Below are positions 1 through 7,237 of a stretch of 64,000 nt of DNA, piece by piece; position 1 is the first letter of the stretch, and each line of letters opens with the position of its first letter. The notes beneath the pieces were generated by a model. It was not told where the DNA came from. It did no database searches and saw only the letters and a list, made by a program, of their open reading frames with translations. Location of the stretch: contig JAXHNP010000007.1 of assembly GCA_034520365.1 (NCBI GenBank), positions 434,001 through 498,000 of the forward strand, given 5' to 3'. The position numbers and the translations under genes were made by a program. The stretch is from Desulfobacterales bacterium. GTDB taxonomy: Bacteria; Desulfobacterota; Desulfobacteria; Desulfobacterales; Desulfosalsimonadaceae.

Positions 1-200
1 CGCATTTTAGATTCCAGCATCTGCATATTCATTGGCCACAACACTTGGTCACCCCCCGTCCTGCTCATAGGAGCGGGACTGGAGACGGCCCTCGATATAG
101 ACAAGCCGGCCCTTGGACAGATATTGACTGCATGCAGATTTCAGCAAGCCGGCCGAATATCACCACCCGGTGCCAGTCCGTGCGCTCCTTTTTTGGGACT
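1..200 (-). pseudogene. ssb remnant (single-stranded DNA-binding protein), multiply frameshifted
   Basis: Read on the minus strand from about 200 downwards, the three frames in turn give pieces of an OB-fold SSB: KERTDWHRVVIFGRLAEIC, then QYLSKGRLVYIEGRLQSRS and YEQDGG, then VVANE, then MQMLESK. These are the consecutive central segments of bacterial SSB (WHRVV.FG.LAE, YL.KG..VYIEGRL, VVAN.MQML). Each junction needs an indel, at least four in about 180 bases, with an in-frame TGA between two of them. Nothing recognisable lies upstream of 200, so the N-terminal part is missing. The cellular SSB must be encoded elsewhere. Sequence errors at a contig end could explain one or two shifts, less easily four. 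Confidence 0.8.
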
Positions 201-274
201 TAAAAATCACAAACGCATAGCACCAAATTTCAATAGGGCTAAACCAACCCCGGGCCTCTCCGGGATCTTTCCCG

Positions 275-424
275 TTATTGATTATCTTCCGGATCTTTCT
301 TTTTATTGCCTGGCACCTGACAGGCATCGCGCATTCAGGTGTTCACCCCGAGGCGAGGCAGTATCCAGAACTGAAGGGCGATCCAGACAACAATGATCAA
401 CAGCGGAATCAACAGGGTGCTCAT
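275..424 (-). CDS. candidate small membrane selenoprotein (in-frame UGA at codon 30)
   Basis: The ATG at 424-422 follows an AGAGAAG Shine-Dalgarno by a few bases. Twenty-nine codons encode a hydrophobic segment (STLLIPLLIIVVWIALQFW) and then ILPRLGVNT. A TGA follows at 337-335, and the same frame continues for 19 codons (MRDACQVPGNKKKDPEDNQ) to TAA at 277-275. Read through, this is a 49-residue single-pass membrane protein with U30-x4-C35 and a charged tail. The RNA just after the UGA folds into a hairpin like a bacterial SECIS (separate entry). Selenocysteine proteins are common in Desulfobacterota. Function is unknown. The U-x4-C spacing suggests a redox or metal site, but that is inference. 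The alternative is a 29-residue hydrophobic peptide that simply ends at TGA. Confidence 0.6.
307..326 (-). promoter_or_regulatory. SECIS-like hairpin directly after the in-frame UGA
   Basis: Numbering from the base after UGA, U9GCCUG14 pairs with C23AGGCA28. A U15/C22 mismatch and a C16-G21 pair close the apical loop AGGU (17-20). Bacterial SECIS elements are described as short hairpins within about 16-37 nt of the UGA, with a guanine at the start of a small loop and an unpaired U in the upper stem. The E. coli fdhF element also has AGGU at its apex. The fit was made by eye; folding energy was not computed. Confidence 0.55.
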
Positions 425-454
425 ATCTTCTCTCACATCTTTTTTTTATTTATA

Positions 455-492
455 ACGATTAAAAGGAAAAATGACGATTAAAAGGAAAAATG
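455..492. repeat. 19-bp tandem duplication
   Basis: The unit ACGATTAAAAGGAAAAATG occurs twice without interruption (455-473 and 474-492), upstream of the small candidate selenoprotein gene. No function is evident. Confidence 0.85.
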
Positions 493-510
493 TCAAAAGC
501 CGCAGTTAGA

Positions 511-613: not shown

Positions 614-3600
614 TCATGGAGTCACCTCAGCACAAGGAAGCACATTAAATGGAGATTCAGGAAAGGCATTGGCGATATCTTCCTTTTCGTCCGTGGCAAT
701 CGGCAGCCATTTGCGAGACTTAGTCGTATTTTCCGTTCCAAAAACCGTAGCCGTTGCGGTAATCTGTGCTTGAATCCATACAGCGTATTCCTTTTGATAT
801 CTCAAGGTAAAGCTTGCCACCCCGTTTTCATCGGTTTCCACATTAGACGGTATGGAACCGGCGGAGGATTGGCCCGGCGTAAGCATGCCATTGTTGAGCC
901 CGGGCACTTGGTCACCAGCGCTATACCCGTCAAAATACGCGGGTAAATCAGAATCCCCCACATTATAACCATCCGTTTGATCCTCACTCAAAGGCGGATC
1001 ATCATCAAGAAAGGAGTTGCCATTTAAATCTTCATTGACAAATATAAAGAGATCACTACCATCGCAGGGGTTCTCATAGGAGACCACCCATTCATCACCA
1101 GATTTAATCCATTCACCGGTCCTAAACAATGACGGCCTCAGCCCCAAAGAAACCTGTTTGCCAACCACCGGGTTTCCGTTAGTGTCTGCAACCAAGACAG
1201 ATACGGGGAGCAAATACTGGGTATTATCCTCATTGGATTCAATTTGGGTTGCAAATCCGATGGATATATTGGCGGCATCCTCCCGGATCACAATGGGAAC
1301 GTCATCCGATCTTGTCGTATCTGTCGGGTGAGCCGGGGTTGCAACCGTAGCGGTGACAAGAACCGCGTCATCCGATTCACTTCCGGTACCCTTGGAGCCG
1401 GAAGTGAAGGTGGTTTCCGCGATGCCGCTTGGATCGGTTGTTACTGTCGCCTGAGACAGGTATTCTCCACCCCCCGTGGTATTGTCCAAAGAAAAATAAA
1501 CCGTAGCGTCCCCAACAGGTGAATTGTTTTCATCAAAAACCGCCGCCGTAATGGTGATACTGTATTCCGTGTCGCCGGTACTCGGCAGTATGTTGGCCTG
1601 TGAGGCTTCTACGCTTATATCATAGGCTTTATCCGCCGGATTATAGAAAGATACTTGAACGGTATCCGAAGGATCAAGATCAGACTGCTCATATACCTCG
1701 ACAGTGGCCACGCCGGGGTCGTCTGCGATAAGCTCTCTGGTGACATCCTGACCCGCTGTTGTTAATGTCTCAGAAGTCGTACTTGAGCCAGTCCCAGCCC
1801 ACCGTCCAAATGAAGTATAAAACTCCACCGTTTCACCGGCACTCAACCCGCCCGCATGAACCGTAACCTCAACCGGTGTTGACCCGTCAGCTATGGCAAA
1901 AGAAAAATCTTCCGCAGGAGCAGTAATCTCGAAAATATCCGCTGCAGCCCCAATCTGGTAAGTTCCGGTGGCAGAGGCGCCTAAACTATCCACGGCATCA
2001 GCTACAATTACTGCGTTGCCGGCAATTGCTCCGGCTTGCAGCTCAAGATATATTTTCCCACTCAAGTCCGTCTGGAACGTATCTGGAAGAGAAGGTGAAA
2101 AACTGAGATCTGCCGGCGGGGTCGTCGAGGCATCAAGACTTACATTGATATCAGCATCAAAAATGGGGGTATCATCGCCATCAAGCGCCTGGATGACAAT
2201 TTCCTGCGTATCGCCCGTACTAACTTGTGCGCTGGCCGGCGTAATGGTAAGCTCGGTGCCTTGCAGGTTAATCGGTATTGATGCCACCTCCTCATCAACA
2301 GTAGCGGTTATCGTTACGGTACTGTTTTTCTTATCCGGCCCCGAGCTTAAATCAATCGTCGCCTGTCCATTTTCATCCGTTTTTACGTTTGCAGAGCTGA
2401 TTTGACCGCCATCTGTACTAAAATTAACGGTTGTCCCTTCTATGGATACCCGGTTTTCATCAAGCACGGTGGCTGTGATGGTTGCTTTGTCTGTCCCGTT
2501 TGTCTTTATCGATGTCTTTGAGGTGGATAGCGACAGAAACGCAGCGGTTGGTACCACTACGCCTTCTCCCTCAAACACCACATTAATTGACTGGGAAACC
2601 CCGCCAGAATACGCTGTGACCGTGGCTGTTCCAGCATCTTCACTAGAGATAAGCGCCACCACCACGGTTCCCGAATCATCTATCGTTTTCTGTGCAATGG
2701 TTTTAGCGCCTGATGTAGAGAACTGTCCCCGGTTGGTTTCAAATAAAACGCTCGTTCCCCTGGGCATAGGGGCTCCCGAATTATCAAATAATGTCGCCGT
2801 AATTGCGACCGAACTTTTTCCGTCCGCCGGTATAGACTCCGCACCTGACGATAACGAAATCGACCCAACAGATTCGCTTCCTCTGTCCACGGTAATCCAG
2901 GTGCTGCTTACCACAGTCTGATTTCTGTCCGCTACGACTTGAACCTTATCCGTTCTTACCAAATCACCCGCCGTATAATCAACCATGGCCTGCCCATTGA
3001 CATCGGTGACAGCGCTTGGCGCAGAGAGACTTGCTGCGCTGTTGTTTTGTATCAGACTGAAATTGAGTTGTTCACCCGCTATCGGATTACCAATTCGATC
3101 CCTGAGTGTACCCACAATGGAGCTTTTGCCGCCAGGCGGCACGGACGATGGAATCGCCTGCACGGTAATCGATTCAGGAGGGCCGCCAACAAATTCCACT
3201 TCAACCTGATCTTTAAACCCGCTGGCGTCAGCGGTCACAATGGCGGCTCCGATCGTTTTCCCGGCTTTAAGGGTTACCTCAGCCACCCCATCAGAACTTG
3301 TCGTGGCCGTTGTCGTGGTCAATGATCCCAGGGTCGTCTCGAAGTCAACTTCAATTCCCGGGGCGGGACTGCCGTTTTTATTCAAGACCGTAGCCCGGAT
3401 TTTCGTGAGGGATTTGCCGTTTGCCACCACCGCGGAGGCGCCGGCATCGAGAGAAATAGATCCAACCACCGTGGCTTCTTCATCAACTTCCACAACCACA
3501 GAATTGGATGTGCCATTGCTGGTTTCAACCGTTATTTCAAGATCGCTGGTTCCATAGACAGCTGCCAAATCAATGCGGACAATGCCCTGTTCATCCGTCA

Positions 3601-4789
3601 CCTGTTCGGCGGTGTCTAAAATCTCACTGCTGCCGACTTCCCGGACGCTAAAGGTCAGTCGTTCATTATTTAAGCGGTTATTGTTTGCGTCCAGCGGAGC
3701 TGCGGAAATTTGGAAGCTGTCACCGGGATTAACCGTTTCCGGACTGGCATACACCAGAATCGATTGAGCCGCGCCGGACACAAAGGCGACATCCACTTCG
3801 CTGAAAAAGCCGTCAGCCTCCGCCCTGACAGTCGCCGTTCCGGTCGTGGTAGATGAGCGGAGCGAGACTTCGGCCATTCCGTTCGCATTGGTGGTGCTGC
3901 TTGTTGTTGTCAGCGTGCCGGCCGTGGTTTGGAAATTGACAATTTTGCCGGAAGCCGGATTCCCATCGATATCCGTCACGGTTGCCCGGATGGCAACCTC
4001 TGTAATGCCGTCTGCTAAAATTGAACCGGCACCGGCGACAACCGTAATGTTATCGACCACGGTGGCATCCGGGTCCACTATCAGCGTGGCGCTCCCTGAT
4101 ACCCCATTGGTTTCGGCTGTCGCTTTAAGCAAGTCTTCACCGGAGCCGCTGCCGGCGATGTAATTGACCTCAGCCTCCCCATTTACGTTTGTGGTCGCGG
4201 TAAGTGTCTGAAATTCGCCCCCGCTGTCGCTCGACTGAACCGAAAAAATAATCGTCTCATCGGCCGCCGGTTCATCATTAACATTTTTCACCATTGCCGT
4301 GACACTGGTGGTGCCGTTTGGATTAAGGGTGCTCGGCGCAATGCTGAGGTCAATCGTGACCGGCGGCAGGGATTTAATAAGCTCGATCTCGAGCTTTTGG
4401 GTAATGCTGTTGGAAGTAACAATAATTTCGGCGGTTCCCGCCGTCGTGCCCGTCGACAGCTGAGCGATGAATGTACCGCTATCATCAACCGTATCAACCT
4501 TGTAAACCTGTTCACCATTTCTGAAGTGCCCGAGATTGGTATGAAATGTCAACTCGGTATTTTGATCCACGGACTGTCCAACCGAATCAGTTAATGAGGC
4601 CGTGATGGAAGTAGACGAAAATCCATCCGCCGGCAGAGTGGCGCTACCGGATGTCAAGGCAATGGAGGCCGTTTCACCGGGACCAGTCCCGCCCCCCGGG
4701 CTTCCGGATTCGCCGCACCCGACTAATAATAATGCCAGCAGGCTGACAAGCAGCACCTGAACGGTTATCTTGGCATATTGGGCTTTCAT
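614..4789 (-). CDS. giant lipoprotein with about 12 Ig-like (Big-1/invasin-type) domains
   Basis: 1391 residues from the ATG at 4789, chosen over an upstream in-frame ATG at 4828 because AAAGGA precedes it and it opens directly with a lipoprotein signal: MKAQYAKITVQVLLVSLLAL, then LLLVGC. A GGGTGPG linker follows, then about 12 tandem domains of roughly 100 residues. The recurring pattern is ADG.S...I.ATV.D..G.P....V.F.T..G....TT...G.A.V.L....GTA.VTA, as in bacterial Ig-like group 1 domains. The last domain contains DLNGNSFLDDD, a calcium-loop-like stretch. It lies 63 bp after pilQ on the same strand, so it is probably co-transcribed with the pilus genes. A surface adhesin or envelope stalk anchored by its acylated N-terminus is likely; ligand unknown. 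Confidence 0.85.
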   Translation of the reverse strand: MKAQYAKITVQVLLVSLLALLLVGCGESGSPGGGTGPGETASIALTSGSATLPADGFSSTSITASLTDSVGQSVDQNTELTFHTNLGHFRNGEQVYKVDTVDDSGTFIAQLSTGTTAGTAEIIVTSNSITQKLEIELIKSLPPVTIDLSIAPSTLNPNGTTSVTAMVKNVNDEPAADETIIFSVQSSDSGGEFQTLTATTNVNGEAEVNYIAGSGSGEDLLKATAETNGVSGSATLIVDPDATVVDNITVVAGAGSILADGITEVAIRATVTDIDGNPASGKIVNFQTTAGTLTTTSSTTNANGMAEVSLRSSTTTGTATVRAEADGFFSEVDVAFVSGAAQSILVYASPETVNPGDSFQISAAPLDANNNRLNNERLTFSVREVGSSEILDTAEQVTDEQGIVRIDLAAVYGTSDLEITVETSNGTSNSVVVEVDEEATVVGSISLDAGASAVVANGKSLTKIRATVLNKNGSPAPGIEVDFETTLGSLTTTTATTSSDGVAEVTLKAGKTIGAAIVTADASGFKDQVEVEFVGGPPESITVQAIPSSVPPGGKSSIVGTLRDRIGNPIAGEQLNFSLIQNNSAASLSAPSAVTDVNGQAMVDYTAGDLVRTDKVQVVADRNQTVVSSTWITVDRGSESVGSISLSSGAESIPADGKSSVAITATLFDNSGAPMPRGTSVLFETNRGQFSTSGAKTIAQKTIDDSGTVVVALISSEDAGTATVTAYSGGVSQSINVVFEGEGVVVPTAAFLSLSTSKTSIKTNGTDKATITATVLDENRVSIEGTTVNFSTDGGQISSANVKTDENGQATIDLSSGPDKKNSTVTITATVDEEVASIPINLQGTELTITPASAQVSTGDTQEIVIQALDGDDTPIFDADINVSLDASTTPPADLSFSPSLPDTFQTDLSGKIYLELQAGAIAGNAVIVADAVDSLGASATGTYQIGAAADIFEITAPAEDFSFAIADGSTPVEVTVHAGGLSAGETVEFYTSFGRWAGTGSSTTSETLTTAGQDVTRELIADDPGVATVEVYEQSDLDPSDTVQVSFYNPADKAYDISVEASQANILPSTGDTEYSITITAAVFDENNSPVGDATVYFSLDNTTGGGEYLSQATVTTDPSGIAETTFTSGSKGTGSESDDAVLVTATVATPAHPTDTTRSDDVPIVIREDAANISIGFATQIESNEDNTQYLLPVSVLVADTNGNPVVGKQVSLGLRPSLFRTGEWIKSGDEWVVSYENPCDGSDLFIFVNEDLNGNSFLDDDPPLSEDQTDGYNVGDSDLPAYFDGYSAGDQVPGLNNGMLTPGQSSAGSIPSNVETDENGVASFTLRYQKEYAVWIQAQITATATVFGTENTTKSRKWLPIATDEKEDIANAFPESPFNVLPCAEVTP

Positions 4790-4852
4790 AAATGGTATCC
4801 TTTCAAAACTTCGGTTTGGAATATTCAAGAATTTTATTCTTAGTAGTGTTAT

Positions 4853-7237
4853 TTATTCGGTTTGGGCCTGGGCGAGACCCCTTTGCTCCAGTTGCACAAT
4901 ATTGGGGGTCATAAAAATCAAAAGCTCCCGTTTGACGACCTCATCCTGCTTGGCGCTAAACAGCCAGCCGATTCCTGGGATATCCTTTAATATGGGCAGA
5001 CCGGCTTGGGCATTACTCTCGGTTCGCTTCACAATACCGCCAATGACAATGGTCTGGCCGTTGTCGATCAGCAGTTCGGTCTGGGCATTGTTCGTGGATA
5101 TCGCCGGCTCTCCAGAGGCGGTAATTTCCTGAATATCATCTTTTTGAAGGTCTATTTCCAGGGAAACGCGCTCATCCGGCGTGATGTGAGGGGTCACTTT
5201 AAGGGTTAAATTAATCTCTTTGAACTCTGTCTGCACCTCATCCTCTTCTACATTCTGATAAGGCCATTCAACCCCCTGGGTAATTGTGGCCTCTTTATTG
5301 TCCAGGGTCACAATCTTTGGCGTTGAAATAATTTTTAACACCTGCTCGGTTTCCATGGCCCGAAGGGTGGCATCCAGTAAAAACGGAGTCCCCATGCTCG
5401 GCAATCGTTCAAAGGAAAAATTAAACAAGCTTGGACTCTCTGTTCCGCCTTCCGCGCCGCCGCCGATAAAGGGCGTATTAACAACCGAATTATATGAGTA
5501 GTTGCCGCCCAGATCCGATCGGTAAACATCTTCGCTCTGTGCGCCCCAGGTAACCCCGACCTTTCGGCTGAAGTTGTCATTTGCCTCAACAATGCGGGCT
5601 TCAATAATCACCTGCGGCGTGACCTTGTCGATTTCAGTGATGATTTCTTTGGCCTTGCGGATCTTGGCCTGGGTATCTGTAATAATGAGCTGGTTGTTGC
5701 GCGAATCCACGGTAACACTGCCCCGCTCTTTTGAAAGCGCATCTTTGACATGGGGCAGCACCTCATTCTGGGCATTGGCGTAGCTGATCTCGATGTATTC
5801 GGTGACCAGCGGTTCCAGCTGTTTCTGCTGCTCTTTTCGTTTTTGGATTGCTTCGATTTTCTGGCGCCTGGCTTCTTCCTCCGCCCTTAACGTACCCTTT
5901 GTGGCAATGCGGATGATCTCGCCCTTTTCCACTTTATCCAGCCCGTTCATCTGCAAGACCAGATCAAGCACCTGGTCCCAGGGCACGGGTTTTTGAAAGG
6001 AGAGGGTCACTGAACCTTGTACATTGGGATCAATGGCGAAATTTTTACCGCTCACCTGCTGGAGGATCCGGAATACGTTTTTGATATTGGTTTCAAAAAA
6101 ATCCAGTGCGATTTTCTCCCCGGTATACTCCTTATCCTCACCGAGCAAATCCGCATAGGGGTTTTCCGGTTCGGCGGGCATAGCTGAAGGTTTTTTGCCT
6201 GAAACGGTTGTTGGGGTTTCCGGGGACAGAGAGTTCTCCAAAACGTTTTGCCAGGATGGCAGATTGGCCGCTTCAAACGGTCTGGGACCGATTGAAGAGG
6301 CTTCAAAATGAATGGCCAGCAGCCCGTTTGACTTGACCGGCCGGTAAGGGACCTGTTCCCGGAGTTCGATCAATATTTCAGTCACATTGTCCGCTTCGGC
6401 GCTTTTTGCAGGAATCACCCGGTCCACGGCACTGTCAAACCGGGTGGTAATTAAAGGCCGCCCCTGGTGATATTCAGGCAGCCGGCTGTTGTTTAACTTC
6501 AATTTCAGCAGGCGAGGCCTGATCTTTTCAATCTGATAGGCTACCGGCTTGCTCGTCTCCACGCTGATCACCGACTTCCCGGATTCTTCGGCTGAAAAAT
6601 CGATCCGCTGGACCAGGGCCGGCTCAGTGCTGTCAGCGCGATCCGGCTCCGGCGCTTCAGTTTTTTTCGATGCGCCAGATGATTGATATCCGGCCGAGTC
6701 CCTGTCGTCTTCTTCGAATGAAGCTGCGCTTTCAGCGGCCATCGCCTCTTCCGAAGATCCGGCCGGGGCCTCTTGCCCGGACGGGGCGGCAGATGAAGCC
6801 TCGGCCCGAAAAACCACTTGCAGCGACGTTCCGTCTTTCTCGACCTTATAGGGCAAATCTTTCAGCAGTGCGATTTCAATCCGCGCATTTTTTTGGTTTT
6901 CCGCCATCGAAGGTTTTACCGAGCTAACAATGTCATTGTCAGGGAGTTCCACGGGGGGAACATCTTTTAGATGGGTGTTCGGAAAATAAAGAATCACGGA
7001 AAGGGGGTCGCGGCGTTTAATCGCCGTATAATCCAATTCATCGCTGGCATTGACTGAAATCCCCATTCCGCCATGGATCGATTTGGCCTGGACATCCGAA
7101 ATGGCAAGGGGCTCAGGCGAGGCCGCTTCGGGCTTTTCTTCCTTTACCGACTTTGCCGCGCAGGCGAGCATGGCGGTCGCTAAAACCCCCAACAGTAACA
7201 CCTTTCCAATATTGAGAAAGTACCTTCGATTAAGCAT
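4853..7237 (-). CDS. pilQ: type IV pilus secretin PilQ
   Basis: 794 residues. The N-terminus (MLNRRYFLNIGKVLLLGVLA, then TAMLAC) is a lipoprotein-type signal with Cys26. Two AMIN-like domains (about 45-130 and 210-310) probably bind peptidoglycan. They flank a Ser/Ala/Glu-rich linker. A secretin/TonB short domain follows (LDFFETNIKNVFRILQQVSG, about 375-440), then an N-domain (ISYANAQNEVLPHVKDALS) and the beta-barrel secretin domain to the C-terminus (VPLASIP-like region, TELLIDNGQTIVIGGI, LLIFMTPNIV). It forms the outer-membrane ring through which the pilus emerges. It starts 16 bp after pilP and ends the conserved pilMNOPQ order. Confidence 0.95.
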   Translation of the reverse strand: MLNRRYFLNIGKVLLLGVLATAMLACAAKSVKEEKPEAASPEPLAISDVQAKSIHGGMGISVNASDELDYTAIKRRDPLSVILYFPNTHLKDVPPVELPDNDIVSSVKPSMAENQKNARIEIALLKDLPYKVEKDGTSLQVVFRAEASSAAPSGQEAPAGSSEEAMAAESAASFEEDDRDSAGYQSSGASKKTEAPEPDRADSTEPALVQRIDFSAEESGKSVISVETSKPVAYQIEKIRPRLLKLKLNNSRLPEYHQGRPLITTRFDSAVDRVIPAKSAEADNVTEILIELREQVPYRPVKSNGLLAIHFEASSIGPRPFEAANLPSWQNVLENSLSPETPTTVSGKKPSAMPAEPENPYADLLGEDKEYTGEKIALDFFETNIKNVFRILQQVSGKNFAIDPNVQGSVTLSFQKPVPWDQVLDLVLQMNGLDKVEKGEIIRIATKGTLRAEEEARRQKIEAIQKRKEQQKQLEPLVTEYIEISYANAQNEVLPHVKDALSKERGSVTVDSRNNQLIITDTQAKIRKAKEIITEIDKVTPQVIIEARIVEANDNFSRKVGVTWGAQSEDVYRSDLGGNYSYNSVVNTPFIGGGAEGGTESPSLFNFSFERLPSMGTPFLLDATLRAMETEQVLKIISTPKIVTLDNKEATITQGVEWPYQNVEEDEVQTEFKEINLTLKVTPHITPDERVSLEIDLQKDDIQEITASGEPAISTNNAQTELLIDNGQTIVIGGIVKRTESNAQAGLPILKDIPGIGWLFSAKQDEVVKRELLIFMTPNIVQLEQRGLAQAQTE

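Follow-up and report, generated by a model that had tools for sequence, protein, structure and literature searches.

The SECIS element of E. coli fdhF has a short stem, a GGU-containing apical loop that follows shortly after the UGA, and an unpaired U. In eukaryotes, SELENOK and SELENOS are small single-pass membrane proteins that carry Sec in a short soluble tail. The protein described here has a similar architecture. This likeness is an analogy of architecture only. SELENOK and SELENOS differ from it in that they are eukaryotic, have their SECIS in the 3' UTR, and have other sequences.

A 2026 review catalogued 119 prokaryotic selenoprotein families and subfamilies with their domain identifiers and described a bSECIS model in which the loop lies 16 to 37 nt after the UGA (PMC13188914). 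According to the deep-Sep paper, Cys homologues now seem to exist for every known selenoprotein, and the filter used there may discard selenoproteins that lack them (PMC12013277). GrdA, the selenoprotein A of glycine reductase, was once thought to be the sole selenoprotein without Cys homologues (PMC12013277). It differs from the family described here in that it is a separate catalogued family (PF04723) for which Cys homologues have since been reported.

Here we analyzed a locus in a window of 64,000 nucleotides from a Desulfobacterales bacterium. Like the catalogued prokaryotic selenoproteins (PMC13188914), the locus has an in-frame UGA with a bSECIS-type hairpin directly after it and a nearby Cys that suggests redox chemistry, and its genome encodes Sec machinery. 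Unlike them, its family has no NCBIfam match, and we found no Cys homologue for it. When 24 and then 77 members were scanned against NCBIfam 20.0, the best match, at E = 0.0045, was an ATP synthase model unrelated to the family. There was no real match in Pfam and no match in PHROGs, PDB, or Rfam. No family in the 2026 catalogue fits a single-pass membrane protein of about 50 residues with U-x4-C, although families in its Table 1 that lack an NCBIfam model could be compared by size, domain, and motif only (PMC13188914). We concluded that the family is absent from the selenoprotein catalogues that we checked. The literature search covered open-access papers only, and an earlier unlabelled mention is possible.

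The gene and its surroundings

A first-pass annotation had placed a candidate 49-residue membrane selenoprotein at positions 275 to 424 without naming the strand. We found the ORF at these positions, on the minus strand, with its ATG at 424-422, an in-frame UGA at 337-335, and a TAA at 277-275. The features of the locus are as follows.

275..424 (-), selenoprotein coding sequence, 49 codons plus TAA, MSTLLIPLLIIVVWIALQFWILPRLGVNT-U-MRDACQVPGNKKKDPEDNQ (from the ORF and its homologues)
335..337 (-), UGA, predicted selenocysteine 30 (each of 133 distinct homologues has TGA, as do the weak true members)
320..322 (-), codon of the conserved Cys35, the U-x4-C partner (from the Cys spacing in members)
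307..326 (-), SECIS-like hairpin whose AGGU apical loop begins 16 nt past the UGA
353..412 (-), single transmembrane helix, residues 5-24 (from AlphaFold and conservation)
427..434 (-), Shine-Dalgarno-like stretch, GAGAGAAG (from the sequence)
449..496 (-), probable promoter, TTGACA at 491-496 and TATAAA at 449-454 (from comparison with the relative L018)
614..4828 (-), lipoprotein-like protein of 1404 residues, rich in Ig-like repeats (our own reading of the sequence, no profile search)
4853..7237 (-), secretin-like protein on the same strand (our own reading of the sequence, no profile search)

The predicted product has 49 residues, with Sec30 and Cys35 as U-x4-C. Several parts that had been proposed earlier were recovered: the Shine-Dalgarno-like stretch, the membrane helix ahead of the UGA, and the 19 codons past the UGA with their Cys. 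In the AlphaFold model (pTM, 0.34), residues 5-24 form the only helix, and the tail has low confidence. The helix ends in a conserved L-Q-x-(W/Y)-I-L-P-(K/R)-x-G-x-x-T motif, and Sec follows. Judged from its sequence and relatives, the 49-codon ORF is a real, unannotated gene and not a chance ORF.

A perfect 19-bp tandem duplication lies at 455-492, between TTGACA and TATAAA. Because of this duplication, the promoter spacer is 36 nt in the window, compared with 17 nt in the intact promoter of L018, a relative from the same genus. The duplication may have weakened or switched expression in this genome, and expression in this species is thus uncertain. A terminator-like inverted repeat lies upstream of the gene on the same strand, at about 511-553.

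In the window, the Ig-like-repeat gene separates the selenoprotein gene from the secretin-like gene; in two relatives (L174 and L175), the secretin-like gene is the direct upstream neighbour of the selenoprotein gene. At 45-203 (-), the window contains a degenerate, frameshifted remnant of a single-strand DNA-binding protein gene (ssb), in which a 30-residue piece is 70% identical to an intact homologue. Relatives of the same family have an intact ssb right downstream of the selenoprotein gene, and ssb neighbours the gene in L024-L026, L174, and L175.

Conservation of the UGA and of the frame beyond it

Using the 49-residue protein as a query, we found relatives in 24 of the 36 genomes of the window's family, each with one internal TGA. 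With a profile (A1), we found relatives in 228/291 genomes of the order (~78%) and in 170/395 genomes of a phylum sample (~43%). The latter count fell to ~167 after a recheck in which three matches (G379, G393, and G600) were weak and remained unconfirmed. A pattern-based search for related loci reaches close relatives only and returned just one. The profile search reads through stops and would detect TAA, TAG, or Cys forms, and coding U as C in the profile favoured Cys forms. Every listed profile match contains TGA. When we reextracted and aligned 133 distinct homologues, the Sec position was TGA in all 133. Neither these nor the weak true members had Cys, TAA, or TAG there.

We also ran a broader profile (A3, built from 77 members) on 80 genomes that were weakly positive or negative. 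It found additional members, all with TGA. Six of its matches were reported without a stop; in five of these, the alignment stopped just short of the UGA, and the sixth was unrelated. This sixth match, L197 (E = 0.002, no TGA), was rejected as a member, being an unrelated, longer membrane-protein frame. In the 77-member alignment, P23, G26, U30, and C35 are invariant. The family has a near-invariant run, L-(Q/N)-x-x-(I/L/V)-L-P-(K/R)-x-G-(I/V)-x-T-U, followed by U-x4-C and a charged tail.

The first-pass annotation had allowed for homologues with Cys in place of the UGA. We found none among the phylum matches that we examined or, by tblastn, in plasmids and phages, which contained no match to the family at all. 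The absence of a Cys form makes the case more unusual than had been assumed. The profile was applied within its own phylum only, and Cys homologues are possible in other phyla.

To either side of the UGA, the sequence is constrained as protein. We estimated dN/dS from 704 pairs of related sequences. It was 0.17 before the UGA and 0.35 in the nine codons past it, in contrast to 1.14 and 1.05 when those nine codons were read in the two alternative frames. Purifying selection thus acts past the UGA, and only in the selenoprotein frame. The distal tail is charged and variable, and dN/dS is saturated there and gives no estimate. Cys follows U at a distance of four residues in 121/128 members, five in 6/128, and eight in 1/128; it is therefore kept despite shifts in its position. 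These comparisons show, at the level of sequence, that the UGA is a sense codon and that coding continues past it. Homologues that end at the UGA would have refuted the original proposal; instead, both the UGA and the peptide beyond it were conserved.

Two variants of the motif were seen. L183 (TULIPQNRQAAV...) and L188 (TULAPVNRQAAV...) have the conserved helix and U but no Cys after U, which makes U the more strictly conserved of the two residues. In a subgroup of four loci (L184, L185, L187, and L190), there are two in-frame UGAs, the first after PS and the second in PTUDGxSC. These loci are predicted to encode a double-selenocysteine version.

Lack of a selenocysteine system would equally have counted against the proposal. 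The genome of the window (G000; 4.3 Mb, 99% complete) has a tRNA-Sec (78 bits; called tRNA-SeC with anticodon TCA by ARAGORN), a SelB that scored 361 bits (cutoff, 242), a SelA that scored 623 bits, and a selD frame that holds its own TGA, indicating a Sec-containing SelD. The system (selA, selB, selC, and selD) is therefore complete. In the phylum sample, all 170 family-positive genomes had tRNA-Sec or SelB. By hand count, 154 had tRNA-Sec, and the remaining 16 all had SelB above the cutoff. Among the family-negative genomes, 35 had no detected tRNA-Sec, 19 of which also had no SelB. Even with the broader profile, we found the family in 0/35 genomes without tRNA-Sec and in 0/19 that lacked SelB too. 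We regard Sec insertion at the UGA as very probable.

A SECIS-like hairpin that differs between lineages

The hairpin just after the UGA in the window is GCCUGUC-AGGU-GCCAGGC, with a U18-C25 mismatch. It shares with the fdhF SECIS a short stem, a GGU-containing loop, and an unpaired U in the stem. The hairpin and AGGU loop that had been described from the window alone held up. The unpaired U did not hold up as a conserved feature, since in most relatives, unlike in fdhF, this stem position is a U-A or C-G pair.

Folded as a single sequence, the window's hairpin does not exceed its shuffles in stability (z = -0.21). By itself it therefore proves nothing, and we used family-wide tests instead. 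Against synonymous-codon resampling, the family had a mean z of -1.30, with 92% of values below zero, whereas an upstream control window gave -0.30. We found a hairpin in 127/133 homologues. Its loop starts 13 to 37 nt past the UGA, most often at 16 or 23 nt, and 118 of the 127 have G in the first two loop positions. A few loops begin 13 to 15 nt after the UGA, below the 16 to 37 nt of the bSECIS model; overall, the spacing and the loop G fit that model (PMC13188914). The RF00031 (SECIS_1) model gave no signal in any control genome, so a search of the window's genome with it was uninformative.

Covariation was also observed. Among the 64 sequences with AGGU-type hairpins, 86% of cells are paired, and structures slid along the sequence did worse. 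The AGGU type has 30 doubly compensated cells, compared with 11.0 ± 2.6 in shuffles (0/500 shuffles). The third base of the Cys codon, where T and C are synonymous, varies together with its partner in the stem (T-A, 41; C-G, 24; T-G, 7; T-C, 7; C-A, 0), with a Fisher P value of 3e-13 that is not corrected for phylogeny. The P values for co-occurrence likewise ignore phylogeny.

The hairpin type switches by lineage. In the window's order, it has the AGGU loop at 16 nt. Outside the order (e.g., L131, L134, and L146), the stems are different, such as GAUCGAGGAUCGAUC, and the loop is mostly 20 to 24 nt after the UGA, so that these hairpins also depart from fdhF in sequence. The change in type is matched by a change in the encoded peptide, from CQVxG to CxIEDR-like. 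We infer from the two types with their different peptides, which suggest as much, that the tail sequence is partly dictated by the RNA hairpin.

Taken together, the conserved TGA, the frame-specific selection, the hairpin stability across the family, and the covariation support the candidate selenoprotein.

Proposed role, alternatives, and meaning

We found no conserved operon partner across the phylum; neighbourhoods are lineage specific. In L099, L104 (20-nt gap), and L112 (4-nt overlap), the gene is directly preceded by a thioredoxin gene on the same strand. Rubredoxin-like frames, judged by eye, are near the gene in L034, L036, and L037. CopA-type P-type ATPases adjoin it in L164, L167, and probably L166, and FeoB/DtxR are near it in L166. 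In five loci (L161, L162, L166, L167, and L170), the UGA is followed within tens of bases by a same-strand ORF for an ECF-type sigma factor, which possibly overlaps the selenoprotein tail. The nearest downstream ORF of at least 150 aa is on the opposite strand in 48/79 loci.

We propose that the product is a small single-pass inner-membrane selenoprotein. SelB, acting on the hairpin 16 nt past the UGA, would deliver Sec-tRNA(Sec), and translation would run 19 residues further. The Sec30 selenol and Cys35, as resolving thiol, would then lie at the membrane surface, after a rigid L-P-(K/R)-x-G-x-x-T turn; from the flank charges, the cytoplasmic side is weakly favoured for the tail. We infer that the pair would cycle between selenol/thiol and selenenylsulfide, would reduce a substrate associated with the membrane (peroxide, disulfide, or membrane redox partner), and would be regenerated by thioredoxin-like reductants. 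If Cys cannot replace Sec in this job, that would account for the missing Cys form. The U-x4-C motif and the thioredoxin neighbour support a redox role, and a selenoprotein of a general redox nature is very probable. A membrane-tethered selenol/thiol redox module is the likeliest role but a tentative proposal, and its specific catalytic cycle is inferred. Because neighbourhoods differ between lineages, only the motif and a few neighbours speak for this role. The absence of Cys near U in L183 and L188 means that the selenenylsulfide step cannot be universal.

The alternative that survives best also accepts a real selenoprotein but has the Sec/Cys pair bind a metal or metalloid (Cu, Hg, or Zn) or regulate a metal transporter. 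The CopA-type ATPases and FeoB/DtxR described above speak for it, and several known prokaryotic selenoproteins handle metals (PMC13188914). However, no metal gene is near most loci, and thioredoxin is the only clear, tight, same-strand neighbour with a known redox role. With just one U and one C on a short tail, the ligand set would also be sparse, and some members have no C. We consider this alternative unlikely, though it stays in play.

Much harder to sustain is a selenium-sensing leader peptide, in which UGA decoding controls a downstream gene and the peptide itself has no function. The ORF is short enough, and the sigma factor ORFs in the five loci are suitably placed, but the strandedness of the downstream ORFs in 48/79 loci, the strong protein-level constraint on both sides of the UGA, and the invariant residues within and beside the membrane helix make it very improbable.

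Slightly weaker still is an ordinary stop, which would leave a 29-residue membrane peptide followed by chance similarity or by an RNA element only. Standard translation does terminate at UGA, and the hairpin shares part of the downstream conservation. Yet TAA or TAG never occupies the Sec position over dozens of families, dN/dS is frame specific, Cys is conserved at distances of 4, 5, or 8 and with two hairpin spacings, and the family is confined to genomes with Sec machinery. Recoded genetic codes are known in other bacteria, but a reading of UGA as Trp or Gly through such a code or a suppressor tRNA is extremely improbable here, given the tRNA-Sec with anticodon TCA, selA, selB, and selD, the SECIS-like element after the UGA, and neighbouring genes in the window that are open under table 11.

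All of the evidence for a selenoprotein is computational, with no experiment. With that reservation, we think it probable that the locus represents a new, obligately Sec-containing family, common across its phylum, never with Cys, performing a membrane redox step beyond the reach of Cys, and with a two-Sec form in one lineage. The tiny size of the gene, its splitting at the UGA by annotation, and the lack of any Cys homologue in our searches are the apparent reasons why the family was missed. If the proposal is true, the family is among the smallest selenoproteins predicted. It would also be a counterexample to the statement that all known selenoproteins have Cys homologues (PMC12013277). Methods based on Sec/Cys pairs miss it because Cys homologues are absent, which implies a blind spot in such methods. 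The family would offer a test of why Sec is kept, at a site where Cys has apparently never replaced it.
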